This document shows positions 55,318-59,543 of a stretch of DNA of 64,000 nucleotides, piece after piece. This stretch comes from Brevundimonas sp. SGAir0440 (lineage in GTDB: Bacteria; Pseudomonadota; Alphaproteobacteria; Caulobacterales; Caulobacteraceae), in NCBI RefSeq assembly GCF_005484585.1, contig NZ_CP039435.1, positions 2,976,001-3,040,000 on the forward strand, in the 5' to 3' direction. The position numbers were made by a program, and so were the translations under genes. The notes under the pieces are model-generated. The model was not told the DNA's origin. It saw only the letters and a program-made list of their open reading frames with translations, and ran no database searches. The first letter of the stretch is position 1; the number at the start of each line of letters is the position of its first letter.

Positions 55318-56601
55318 CTAGACGCTCAAGCGTAAGGCCAGGGCCGCAAGGGCGACGCCTAAAACCGGCAGGGTGAGCACCATGCCCACCTTGAAATAAT
55401 AGCCCCACCCGATCTTCACGCCCTTCCGCGCCAGGACGTGCAGCCACAGCAATGTGGCCAATGAGCCGATGGGCGTCATCTTCGGCCCCAGGTCGCTGCC
55501 GATGACATTGGCGTAGATCATCGCCTCCCTCGCTGCGCCGGTCGCGCCCGAAGCGTCGATCGACAAGGCGCCAATCAGGACCGTCGGCATATTGTTGGCG
55601 ATAGCCGACAGGAAGGCCGTCAGGAACCCGGTTCCGAAGGCCGCGCCCCAGACCCCGCCCTGCGCGAATCCGTCCAGAAGGCCGGCGATCTGGCGTGTCA
55701 GACCGGCGTCGCCCAGCCCATAGACGACCAGATACATCCCCAGTGAGAAGATCACGACCTGCCACGGCGCCTCGCGCAGCACCTTCGTCGTGCTGACGAC
55801 CGCGCCGCGCCCCGCCACGACCAACAGGACGACCGCCCCCGTCGCGGCGACGGCGGACACCGGGACCCCTCGCGGCTCCAGCACGAAGAAGCCGATCAGC
55901 AAAAACGCCAGGATGATCCAGCCCCAGAGGAAGGTCGCCCGGTCCTTGATCGCGCTGGACGGCGTGGCCAGGCGCTCCACGTCATAGGCCTTGGGAATAT
56001 CGCGCCCGAACACCACAAACAGCACCATCAGCGTCGCCGCGATGCTCGCCAGGTTCACCGGCGCCATGACCGCCGCATAGCGGTCGAAGCCGATGTCGAA
56101 GAAGTCGGCCGAGACGATATTGACCAGGTTGGACACCACCAGCGGCAGGCTGGCCGCATCCGCGATGAAACCCGCCGCCATCACGAAGGCCAGCGTCGCC
56201 TTGGGGCCATAGCCGAGCGCCAGCAGCATGGCGATGACGATGGGCGTCAGGATCAGCGCCGCCCCGTCGTTGGCGAAGACCGCCGACACCGCCGCGCCCA
56301 GCAGGACGAACAGGACGAACAGCCGGCGCCCATGGCCGCCGCCCCATCGCCCGACATGCAGCGCCGCCCATTCAAAGAAGCCGGCCTCGTCCAGCAACAG
56401 GCTGATGATGATGATCGCGACGAAGGTCGCCGTGGCGTTCCAGACGATGTCCCAGACCACGGGGATGTCGGCTAGGGTGACGACGCCAAGCAACAGCGCC
56501 GCCGCCGCACCGCCCATCGCGCTCCAGCCGATCTGCAGGCCCTTCGGCTGCCAGATCACCAGGGTGATGGTGACCGCGAAGATCAGAAAGGCGACGATCA
56601 T
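55318..56601 (-). CDS. arsB: Arsenite efflux transporter ArsB
   Basis: A 427-residue transporter with about twelve helices. ArsB/NhaD-type landmarks: [77 protein letters not shown] and [21 protein letters not shown]. It expels arsenite or antimonite, using proton-motive force or coupled with ArsA (not present here). GGAG lies six bases before ATG 56601, so the longer frames to 56613 or 56661 are not used. It is divergent from arsR-arsC. Confidence 0.93.
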
Positions 56602-56647
56602 GGGCGGCTCCATCCCGGTCGACCAACGACCGCAGCACCCCTCTAGC

Positions 56648-56681
56648 TTGCACGAAACCATATTTCCAGTATCTTGGAATA
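56648..56681 (+). promoter_or_regulatory. Predicted arsR promoter and ArsR operator
   Basis: TTGCAC (56648-56653) and TATCTT (56670-56675) are spaced 16 bases. The arsR ATG at 56682 is six bases after the -10, so the transcript is probably leaderless. The inverted repeat TTCCA-N6-TGGAA (56664-56679) sits on the -10 box, a fitting place for a repressor that also lies between the divergent arsB and arsR. Confidence 0.6.
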
Positions 56682-57017
56682 ATGGAATCCGAACCGGCTA
56701 TTCTCGCGCTCGCCGCCCTGGCGCAATCCACGCGACTGGACGCCTTTCGGCTGCTTGTCCGCCATGCGCCGGACGGACTGCCGGCCGGAGAGATCGCGGA
56801 CCGGCTCGCCGTTCCGACCAATACGATGTCGGCGCATCTGGGCGTGCTGTCGCGCGCCGGACTGATTGTGTCCCAGAGGCGCAGCCGGTCGATCATCTAC
56901 CGGGCTGATCTGGATCGACTGGGCGAGGTCGTGCTGTTCCTGCTCAAGGACTGCTGCCAGGGCCGCGCCGAGCTTTGCCAACCCCTGCTGGCCGAACTGG
57001 CCCCCTGCTGCGACTGA
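56682..57017 (+). CDS. arsR: ArsR family arsenic-responsive repressor
   Basis: A 111-residue winged-helix repressor (core [41 protein letters not shown] in parts). It lacks the ELCVC motif in the DNA-binding helix found in the R773 type. Instead it has C-terminal cysteines C91, C92 and C99 ([10 protein letters not shown]) plus C109 and C110. That pattern resembles the C-terminal three-cysteine site of Acidithiobacillus-type ArsR. As(III) binding there should release DNA. There is no Shine-Dalgarno before the ATG. arsC follows by five bases. Confidence 0.92.
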
Positions 57018-57022
57018 GGCCA

Positions 57023-57427
57023 ATGGACGTCGTCATCTATCACAACCCCGCCTGCGGCACGTCGCGCAACACCCTGGCCCTGATACGCCACGTCGGGATC
57101 GAGCCGCATGTGATCGAGTACCTGAAGACCCCGCCCAGCCGTGCGCTGCTGGCCCAACTGGTCGAACGGATGGGCGGATCGGTGCGCGATATCCTGCGCG
57201 AAAAGGGCACGCCCTACGCCGACCTCGGCCTGGACGACGCCGCCCTGTCGGACGACCAACTGCTGGACGCCATCGCGGCGCATCCGATTCTGATGAACCG
57301 CCCCATCGTCGTCTCGCCCCTGGGGGTGAAGCTGTGCCGCCCGTCCGAGGCGGTGCTGGACCTGCTGCCCGACACTCTCTCCAAGCCCTTCGTCAAGGAA
57401 GACGGCCAGGTCATTCTCGACGCCTAG
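57023..57427 (+). CDS. arsC: Arsenate reductase (glutaredoxin-dependent)
   Basis: A 134-residue ArsC of the glutaredoxin-coupled type. The catalytic Cys11 lies in IYHNPACGTSRNTL, and the conserved arginines lie in RPIVVSPLGVKLCRP. It reduces arsenate to arsenite, which ArsB expels. The co-directional arsR five bases upstream means both are induced together. The longer frame to 56975 overlaps arsR and is not used. Confidence 0.93.
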   Translation: MDVVIYHNPACGTSRNTLALIRHVGIEPHVIEYLKTPPSRALLAQLVERMGGSVRDILREKGTPYADLGLDDAALSDDQLLDAIAAHPILMNRPIVVSPLGVKLCRPSEAVLDLLPDTLSKPFVKEDGQVILDA

Positions 57428-57442: not shown

Positions 57443-57961
57443 CTATGACGCGCGTTGCCCGTCCAGCCAGTCCAGGCGGCTGAGCTGCAGACTGATCGCC
57501 AGTTCGATGCGGGGACGCTCGATCGGGTCCAGCGACACCACATACTGACGCAAGGCGGCGATTTCCGCCTCCACCGTGCGCCTCAGGGCCGCCAGGGCCT
57601 CAGCCTTTCGGACAGGCGGCAGACGGTCCCACATGCCTGAGCGCAGGCGGAAGGGGTCTAGACCGACGCTGGCGGCGCGCTCGGCGTCGCAGATCCAGTC
57701 TTCCATCACCGCGACTCCCTGTGGCGTCAGGGACAGAAGAACCGTGCCCCGGCCCGAACCCGTCTCGGCCGCGTCGATCACGCCACGATCCGTCAATCGT
57801 CGAATGGCCGGATAGACGGCGCCCGCGCTGCCCCTCCATTCCAGAGACATCGAATCCTGGAACGCCTTGCGGACCTTGAAGGCGGTCGAGGCGCCGCGAT
57901 GATGGATTTCCGACAGGATGGCGCCTTCCAGCTCCGTCAGGCTTCCTTGCCGATTGTTCAT
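57443..57961 (-). CDS. PadR family transcriptional regulator
   Basis: A 172-residue PadR protein. The winged helix starts at LTELEGAILSEIHHRGASTAFKVRKAF, with SAGAVYPAIRRLTDRGVI as the recognition region, and a C-terminal helical dimerisation domain (Vir_act_alpha_C-like) ends the chain. It is divergent from a retropepsin-like gene, and the gap holds a perfect palindrome. The simplest reading is a repressor of itself and of that neighbour. Ligand unknown. Confidence 0.9.
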   Translation of the reverse strand: MNNRQGSLTELEGAILSEIHHRGASTAFKVRKAFQDSMSLEWRGSAGAVYPAIRRLTDRGVIDAAETGSGRGTVLLSLTPQGVAVMEDWICDAERAASVGLDPFRLRSGMWDRLPPVRKAEALAALRRTVEAEIAALRQYVVSLDPIERPRIELAISLQLSRLDWLDGQRAS

Positions 57962-57976
57962 TTGACCCGATCCGAC

Positions 57977-58001
57977 TCGATAGTCCTAATCGGACTATCG
58001 A
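57977..58001. promoter_or_regulatory. Perfect palindromic operator in the PadR/retropepsin gap
   Basis: TCGATAGTCC (57977-57986), spacer TAATC, GGACTATCGA (57992-58001). The 10-bp arms are exact, and the element lies 16 bases from the PadR start and 18 from the retropepsin start. It is almost certainly the site of a dimeric regulator, most likely the PadR protein itself. Confidence 0.75.
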
Positions 58002-58018
58002 CGTCCATGGAGGAATGC

Positions 58019-58939
58019 ATGATCCGGTCCTTGTTCAAACGCGCCACGGCAGCGGCCTGCCTGGCCGGAGTCAGCCTATCGGCTGGCCTTGCTGCGGCGC
58101 AAGCCGCGCCTGTCTCTCAAGCGCCCACTCAGGCGCCCCCTCTGGCGACCGCCCCCGCGCCGGCGGCCGCTGTGGCCCGCATCCCGCTCTATGTTTCGGA
58201 CGGCCGGGCGCTTCTGATGATGCGGATCAACGGCGGCCATCCTGCGCCCGTCGTCTTCGACACCGGCACCAACGGCAACCTGATCTACAAGTCTTACGCC
58301 GACGACATGGGCATGCCGAATGTGGGCCCGTCCCAGTCCAGGGACGGCAGCACGGGCCTGATGGTGCCCGGCTATACGACCAGTCTGAAGGGGGTGACCC
58401 TGGGCGGCTATGCGATCACCGAGGGCCCCGCCACCGTCTTCGAGTTCAGGGACGAGGACGAAGTCGGCATCTTCGGTCCCAACAGCTTCCCCGGGAAACT
58501 GGTCGAGATGAACCTGGCGAAGGGCGAGCTTCGCATCATGGCGCCCGATGCGCCCCAGCGCCCCGAGGGCCCCGGACACGCCTATTCCGACGACGAACGC
58601 CTGCCGGTCGTCGCCTTGGACCTGCCGGGCGCCTCGGTCGAGGCCACCCTGGACACCGGCAACGACAGCGCCTTCCTGCTGCCGCTGTCTCTGGTCAGCC
58701 AGATCAAGTTGAAGGGCGAGCCGCGCAAGATCGGCATCGCGACCTCCGCCGCCGGAACCCAGCCGGTGTACGAGGCCCAGGCCGACGGCCCGGTCAAGGT
58801 CGGCGGCGTCGTGGTCGACAGCCCCAAGCTGCGTTTCATCGAGGGCGGAACCCCCAATGTCGGCCTGCCCATGATGCGCAAGTTCCGATTCGTCTTCGAC
58901 CCCACCAACGAACGCACCTGGGTCCTGGCGGGCGACTGA
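58019..58939 (+). CDS. Exported retropepsin-like aspartyl protease
   Basis: A 306-residue protein with a signal peptide (to about residue 30) and a Pro/Ala-rich linker. Two aspartyl-protease halves follow, with VVFDTGTNGNL (Asp81) and ATLDTGNDSAFLL (Asp212), so both catalytic aspartates sit in one chain. A C-terminal NVGLPMMRKFRFVFD segment resembles the hydrophobic Gly motif ending such folds. It probably works in the periplasm; substrate unknown. ATG 58019 has GGAGG five bases upstream. It is divergently paired with a PadR regulator. Confidence 0.85.
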   Translation: MIRSLFKRATAAACLAGVSLSAGLAAAQAAPVSQAPTQAPPLATAPAPAAAVARIPLYVSDGRALLMMRINGGHPAPVVFDTGTNGNLIYKSYADDMGMPNVGPSQSRDGSTGLMVPGYTTSLKGVTLGGYAITEGPATVFEFRDEDEVGIFGPNSFPGKLVEMNLAKGELRIMAPDAPQRPEGPGHAYSDDERLPVVALDLPGASVEATLDTGNDSAFLLPLSLVSQIKLKGEPRKIGIATSAAGTQPVYEAQADGPVKVGGVVVDSPKLRFIEGGTPNVGLPMMRKFRFVFDPTNERTWVLAGD

Positions 58940-58961: not shown

Positions 58962-59495
58962 TCAGGCGTCGGACCGTTCGGGCGTCTGCGGAATACGGTC
59001 CGTCAGCAGTTTCAGGACCTTGGCGGTAATGGCCAATTCCTCGTCGGTGACGCCGGCCAGCAGTCGGGTGCGATCCTCACGCGCCACACGATCGGAGGCG
59101 TTCAGCGCCTCCAGCCCCTTGGGTTCCAGCCGGATCAGGTTGGCGCGTCCGTCGCCGCAAAACGGATGGCGTGACACCAGCCCCTCTTCGATCGACAGCT
59201 TGATGCGGCGCGACAGCGACGCCTCCGATATCCGCAAGATCGCCGCCAGCTCCGACTGCGTCAGACCCTTGGGCTTGGACGCCAGAACATACAGGTGCGC
59301 ACGCTGCGCCGCCGTATAGCCTCGGCCGCGAAACAGCGCATTGGCCCGCGTGATCCACGCCCGGGCCACGAAGGCGATGCGCATCGACACGACCAGTTCC
59401 AGGCTTCCGCGCGGATCGTCCCCGGTCGTCGCTGCATCCGCCTCCGTAAAGCTTAGATAGAAGGCGTCATCGAGATCGGCGGGGTGGGAAGACAT
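58962..59495 (-). CDS. MarR family transcriptional regulator
   Basis: A ~177-residue regulator. The MarR winged helix is clear: YTAAQRAHLYVLASKPKGLTQSELAAILRISEASLSRRIKLSIEEGLVSR (in parts), CGDGRANLIRLEPKG as the wing, and a C-terminal dimerisation helix. It lies 49 bases before the thioesterase start in the other direction of reading, that is just downstream of that gene on the same strand, so the two could be co-transcribed. The start may be GTG 59504. Ligand unknown. Confidence 0.88.
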   Translation of the reverse strand: MSSHPADLDDAFYLSFTEADAATTGDDPRGSLELVVSMRIAFVARAWITRANALFRGRGYTAAQRAHLYVLASKPKGLTQSELAAILRISEASLSRRIKLSIEEGLVSRHPFCGDGRANLIRLEPKGLEALNASDRVAREDRTRLLAGVTDEELAITAKVLKLLTDRIPQTPERSDA

Positions 59496-59543
59496 GGGCG
59501 TCACGCAAACAGGCGCTGGATATCAGGCGAAGAGCGAAAGCCT

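Follow-up and report, generated by a model that had tools for sequence, protein, structure and literature searches.

The locus raises the question of whether a PadR-type regulator and a retropepsin-like protease, encoded back to back in Brevundimonas sp. SGAir0440, belong to one regulatory unit, and what such a unit would do. The window is the whole stretch of DNA that was analysed (64,000 nucleotides), and the features of the locus are collected in Table 1. The first-pass annotation had described a PadR gene divergent from a retropepsin gene across a 57-base gap, and the open reading frames, the Pfam matches and the limits of the gap agree with this layout. The exact 25-bp palindrome with 10-bp arms that it had placed in the gap is present, and the DTG triads of the protease were found at exactly the two positions, Asp81 and Asp212, that it had named for mutants.

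Table 1. Coordinates of the features of the PadR–retropepsin locus in the window
Feature	Position	Strand	Description
PadR-clade regulator, 172 aa	57443–57961	−	N-terminal winged helix; C-terminal half with conserved D-P-x-R-x-R (usually DPFRLRxG)
Divergent intergenic gap, 57 bp	57962–58018	.	expected site of both promoters
Perfect palindrome, 25 bp	57977–58001	.	TCGATAGTCC-TAATC-GGACTATCGA; 10-bp perfect arms, 5-nt spacer
Core 17-mer operator	57981–57997		inside the 25-bp palindrome
Shine-Dalgarno-like GGAGG	58009–58013	+	ahead of the protease start; read by eye
Two-domain single-chain retropepsin-like aspartic protease, 306 aa	58019–58939	+	signal-peptide-like N-terminus; D81-T-G and D212-T-G

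The palindrome ends 15 nt from the start codon of the PadR gene and 17 nt from that of the protease gene, and because of this spacing the operator would overlap the promoters. No sigma-70 consensus promoter was found in the 57-bp gap. The 25-mer had no match at up to three mismatches in 100 shuffles of the window, and when the gap was shuffled 20,000 times at constant composition, a palindrome of any sequence with 10-bp arms and a loop of 0–12 nt appeared in 11 of the shuffles. A wider regulon was looked for, and the exact motif TAGTCC-N5-GGACTA occurs a single time in the 3.15 Mb single-contig genome, in which two further sites each carry one mismatch in the 12 arm bases.

The window PadR was assigned to the PadR domain family by a score of 28.7 bits against Pfam PF03551, narrowly above the cut-off of 27. 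PadR profile A3 matches solved PadR structures with a best E value of 1.4e-8. None of the NCBIfam models reached its cut-off on this protein, and the BlaI/MecI model PF03965 gave 13.6 bits against a cut-off of 22.6, which leaves the protein outside that family.

Pfam PF13650 matches the window protease in two stretches (E 1.2e-15) with 58.4 bits against a cut-off of 24.3, placing the protein in this family. Both catalytic triads are retained in 16 of 16 aligned retropepsins, with DSG in some of the second domains. Partial matches to PF20729 and NF038019 fall under both family cut-offs; the latter, the PecA model, gave 21.8 bits against a cut-off of 150 and does not include the protein. The predicted structure has a pLDDT of 84. 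The top structural match among those listed is the putative endopeptidase 9iy9 of Bacteroides fragilis (Z 18.3 over 243 residues, 14% identity), and the next are Rv0977 (4ehc, Z 15.7) and the pepsins and tethered HIV protease (Z about 15). By sequence and model, the window protein is a predicted clan AA protease with the general pepsin/retropepsin fold, and proteolytic activity is predicted for it. It is apparently exported, as judged from a hydrophobic N-terminus seen by eye and from a hydropathy window.

The genome-neighbourhood survey that the first-pass annotation had named as a check found the pair to be conserved, contrary to the lack of conservation that it had set as part of a refutation. 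Close relatives of the retropepsin at E ≤ 1e-40 in 61 genus and 249 family genomes number 12 with that of the window, of which 11 adjoin a PadR gene of the D-P-x-R-x-R clade and the 12th has the operator alone. The genus sample provided five strong matches (one each in G000, G044 and G028, two in G047), all beside a PadR relative. Eight matches at E < 1e-80 were obtained from the 249 Caulobacteraceae genomes, seven of them with PadR alongside. The eighth, in genome G262 (locus L106), has no PadR within 1.5 kb and carries TGGTGCTAATCGTACTA immediately upstream; the single clade PadR of this genome is located elsewhere and adjoins a different retropepsin. The retropepsin of L106 is a candidate for a target in trans. 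Its operator lies at about 2362–2378 of the locus, and the gene is divergent from one for an OmpA-like outer-membrane beta-barrel. The weaker retropepsin matches (12 in the genus, 18 in the family) have no clade PadR in about 1.5 kb on each side. The reading of the window genes as an isolated local pair was rejected because the pair and the operator recur in other genomes.

The hosts of the PadR clade are Caulobacterales, Sphingomonadales, Xanthomonadales and MAGs. A scan of genome contigs with the PadR alignment provided 31 loci from Brevundimonas, Asticcacaulis, Phenylobacterium, Sphingomonas, Lysobacter, Rhodanobacteraceae, alphaproteobacterial MAGs and one record labelled Acidobacteriaceae, and further loci were added from the family and class genome searches. 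The presence of the clade is patchy, with a strong PadR match in 10 of 249 family genomes and a weak relative in genome G029 (31–32% identity, E 3e-24). For the latter, no operator was found and no hydrolase occupies the divergent place, where a 175-aa open reading frame starts about 330 nt away. Carriage on plasmids was considered and rejected; one PadR match at 27.8% was found, beside TonB-dependent receptors and a histidine kinase, with no retropepsin match.

When the flanks of the 31 loci (6 kb at most, less near contig ends; open reading frames of at least 100 aa) were compared, no gene besides PadR and its partner was common to all, which fits the earlier description of the unit as self-contained. 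Genes of an ars cluster adjoin the pair in the window at 55318–57427 and encode an ArsB efflux pump (− strand), an ArsR-type regulator (+) and an ArsC arsenate reductase (+). ArsR-like (about 50% identity) and ArsC-like (68%) open reading frames lie 1.5–2.3 kb from the PadR gene of L055, a PadR–S41 locus, and the ars neighbourhood of these two loci is possibly a shared insertion region. Among the 31 loci compared, ars-like open reading frames are common to L038, L039 and L055 only. A gene for a MarR-family regulator is located just downstream of the window protease gene on the opposite strand (58962–59504).

Every one of the 38 clade loci has a 17-bp operator that matches the consensus TAGTACTAATCGTACTA at no fewer than 11 of the 13 scored positions, a score reached by 0.13% of 7,600 order-1 resampled gaps; the consensus was read from the same 38 loci, so further tests matter, and those described below are only partly independent. 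The 38 loci include the window (L023) and near-copies, and five of them form the orthologue group of the window at 94–100%. Second views and near-copies (L025, L026, L028, L036, L039, L069, L072, L074, L076 and L078) and weak PadR matches (L029/L079, L030–L035, L037 and L080) were excluded from this set. The operator was found in 0 of 30 other PadR-family loci. In 45 genomes chosen by PadR status, the pattern TRGTNCKAWTCGNACYA was detected in 13 of the 15 that have a strong match to PadR and in none of the 30 that lack one (Fisher 1.4e-9), a partly circular test in which 12 of the 13 positive sites lie in loci that supplied the consensus.

Operator scans blind to PadR were carried out on 249 Caulobacteraceae and 385 alphaproteobacterial genomes and provided 11 sites, 10 of them at clade partner promoters. 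The 10 sites of the family scan are eight PadR–partner gaps, all of them consensus loci (the partner in G215 being ChaN/Tiki-like), the G262 retropepsin, and one site inside a TonB-dependent receptor gene (G221). The class scan with the narrower pattern TAGTNCKAWTCGNACTA returned two sites, the window and G286. Eight of the 10 partner-promoter sites thus come from consensus loci, and of the three new sites, two are at retropepsins (G262 and G286) and one is a miss. The G286 locus (L151) has an operon form, in which the operator, a lipoprotein-like retropepsin with PDZ and then a distant PadR recognized by Pfam all follow in one direction. Genomes with the operator pattern numbered 10 against 8 for a reversed-pattern control in the family and 2 against 11 in the class; the telling result is the location of the sites, not the genome counts.

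The symmetry of the operator is retained across the clade, with position pairs 1–4 complementary in 29–36 of 37 rows. Positions 5 and 13 co-vary, being complementary in 25 of 37 rows, a value equalled by 3 of 10,000 shuffles that ignore kinship; such co-variation would be expected of a site bound by a dimer. All seven rows with G at position 13 have Arg43 in PadR, compared with 3 of the 30 other rows, although this column ranked second in a post hoc scan and the G rows are six of one lineage plus L055. Arg43 is positioned just before what is presumed to be the recognition helix of PadR. In the divergent gap of L044, two operator-like sites about 20 bp apart precede the gene for an S12/beta-lactamase-fold protein with sub-threshold TPR matches.

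The gene that faces PadR is not always a retropepsin. The divergent partner is readable in 36 of 38 clade loci, being cut off by the contig end in L052 and L062. With representatives classed by Pfam matches and the others by their similarity in sequence, the 36 partners are 18 retropepsins, seven CPBP/Rce1 membrane proteases, three M13 metallopeptidases (two PadR relatives of the genus sample face such enzymes), two S41 proteases, two S12/beta-lactamase-fold proteins and four weakly ChaN/Tiki-like proteins. One of the S41 partners has PDZ, and both S12/beta-lactamase-fold partners have sub-threshold TPR matches. All 36 belong to these six families and have hydrophobic N-termini or membrane spans, with the enzyme class of the four ChaN/Tiki-like proteins being one that we infer. 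Where catalytic motifs were examined, HExxH is present in two of three M13 partners (the third is truncated by the end of the locus). Both S12 partners have SxxK and YxN, and all seven CPBP partners have EExxxR, with L061 and L068 not picked up by a plain FxxxH pattern. In both S41 partners, inspection by eye shows a Ser within G-S-A-x-E.

The four ChaN/Tiki-like partners (L050, L053, L057 and L058) form a family whose members are about 440 aa long, have a hydrophobic N-terminus and share the conserved motifs ENH and GEHH. Their assignment as enzymes is tentative because the ChaN/Tiki similarity is under the Pfam cut-off, L053 is without any Pfam match, and the structure model has a pLDDT of 41 and no confident fold. 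The profile of the family matched only EreC (E 0.82) and a dGTP hydrolase (E 0.25) in the PDB.

On a PadR tree of 37 rows, in which L039 stands for L024 and L070 is omitted, weak inner branches number 10 of 33. The 35 labelled rows require at least eight changes of partner class, where the minimum possible for six classes is five. This count takes no class of unknown partners, the inclusion of which gave 10, and it falls to seven without the long branch L066. The M13, S41 and S12 classes each occupy two places on the tree. The term proteolysis unit in the first-pass annotation was therefore too narrow, since this regulator and operator are combined with various exported or membrane partners that replace one another, the retropepsin among them.

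As a control for the partners, upstream open reading frames (either the longest one or the more likely of the top two by length) in nine of the 30 other PadR loci were scanned. Hydrolases account for two of the nine: L146 has a phosphodiester glycosidase, and L147 has, on the same strand as PadR, a protein of the S12/beta-lactamase fold. PadRs outside the clade can therefore have a hydrolase neighbour as well; the control is narrow because most of the 30 loci hold one orthologous PadR, as judged by eye, and some of the open reading frames are not immediate neighbours. The remaining seven are three cytochrome oxidase subunits II, an NrtR-like protein, a DUF418 protein, GlyQ and an enoyl-CoA hydratase.

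The pairing, the conservation of the operator, the hydrophobic N-termini or membrane spans of the partners, their catalytic motifs where examined, and the exchange of partners are read directly from the sequence. The locus is likely to be a two-gene, autoregulated repressor–hydrolase cassette with an exchangeable hydrolase, for which binding, repression and induction are proposed as follows. A dimer of the PadR-type repressor of the D-P-x-R-x-R clade would occupy the single TAGTnC-(T/G)A(A/T)TC-GnACTA operator in the short divergent gap. Since there is little promoter room outside the operator, bound PadR would silence both its own gene and that of the extracytoplasmic hydrolase. An inducer would free PadR from the operator, as general PadR biology suggests for this step and for the ligand control named in the first-pass annotation, and the hydrolase would then be made and exported. 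The hydrolase slot would be filled by the two-domain retropepsin in the window and by CPBP, M13, S41, S12-type or ChaN/Tiki-like proteins in relatives. By analogy with detoxification PadRs, our guess is that the hydrolase destroys or processes the agent that relieves repression, and we would further guess that this inducer is a peptide-like toxin or antibiotic.

Several known systems resemble parts of this cassette. BlaI/MecI is a winged-helix repressor acting at a divergent operator on an exported resistance hydrolase. It is alike in outline, but the clade regulator belongs to the PadR family and the 31 loci have no further gene in common, whether for a sensor peptidase or otherwise. PadR/padA serves the detoxification of phenolic acids. 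PadR/padA, LmrR, LadR and LftR, which repress genes for detoxification and efflux, are like the window PadR in the winged helix; the clade differs from them in its own operator consensus and in its target, an extracytoplasmic hydrolase of varying class, mostly from peptidase families. Passages of PMC6624303 on Listeria describe the ladR and mdrL promoters as close enough for one operator to seem possible, and LftR as the regulator of an efflux pump for which aurantimycin, a depsipeptide, is the inducer.

For the protease, the single-chain two-domain aspartic protease fold is common to the window protein and the C-terminal aspartic proteases of PE_PGRS proteins (Rv0977, PecA family). PecA carries a PE part; the window protease has no PE domain and is regulated otherwise. 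The B. fragilis protein 9iy9, a chain of 420 residues, is likewise similar in fold. The RloA proteases of Pseudomonas aeruginosa, likened here by their description in parts of PMC12239564, are exported bacterial retropepsin-like proteins, as the window protease is predicted to be. One RloA gene lies in an operon with genes for a transglutaminase-like and an ATP-grasp protein, and the word PadR is absent from the main text of that paper (PMC12239564).

A stress-care role such as that of RloA is the main rival to the detoxification reading. Hydrolases made freely would be harmful, PadR would act as a brake that answers an internal envelope or metabolic cue and not a toxin, and the enzyme would serve general envelope turnover or stress. 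This is in line with the part taken by the secreted retropepsins RloA1–3 of P. aeruginosa in biofilm, cell shape and the tolerance of osmotic stress (PMC12239564), and with the general pepsin/retropepsin fold of the window protease. The exchange of unrelated classes and the patchy presence in the family are more in keeping with an accessory trait than with upkeep of the envelope as a core function, and such a role is regarded as possible but doubtful. PadR might instead activate the hydrolase gene or regulate it in both senses. AphA (1yg2), to which the sequence is related at E 2.2e-7, is listed in the structure match as a gene activator, and PrhP is presented as a positive regulator of the PadR family (PMC6804342). 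The distances from the operator to the two start codons suit steric repression of both genes, and an activator is unlikely.

The two genes could also be mere neighbours, PadR regulating only itself and the divergent gene being incidental. Compact genomes often have short divergent gaps, binding of PadR to the operator is a prediction from sequence, and hydrolases occur beside other PadRs in the control as well. Against this stand the membership of all 36 readable partners in six families of proteins with hydrophobic N-termini or membrane spans (four of the 36 being putative enzymes), the operator kept by the G262 retropepsin without an adjacent PadR, and the operator of G286, which lies upstream of the retropepsin and not beside PadR. 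Incidental neighbourhood is very improbable.

Each component is already known on its own, be it the PadR repressor, the divergent operator or the exported retropepsin. No paper that treats PadR and a retropepsin jointly was found in the open-licence PMC literature searched, nor was any description of a PadR clade that keeps one operator while its hydrolase is exchanged. The repressor–hydrolase cassette may be tentatively extended to a modular immunity, in which one sensor–operator module is combined with any extracytoplasmic hydrolase that destroys a peptide or peptide-like toxin or antibiotic of rivals. PadR would sense the toxin, and each variant would therefore name its own target. PADLOC models gave no match at E ≤ 1e-3 to seven proteins, an absence compatible with a defence role.

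The regulator and the operator stay constant while unrelated hydrolases replace each other, which points to one task and suggests that a single biological task has several enzymatic solutions. The 17-bp operator can be used to locate more members of the group, even genes that have no PadR beside them, such as that of G262, and the inducer would indicate the substrate of these exported hydrolases. If the immunity reading is true, the proteases, the S12 fold, CPBP and the weakly ChaN/Tiki-like partners would be alternative solutions to one task.
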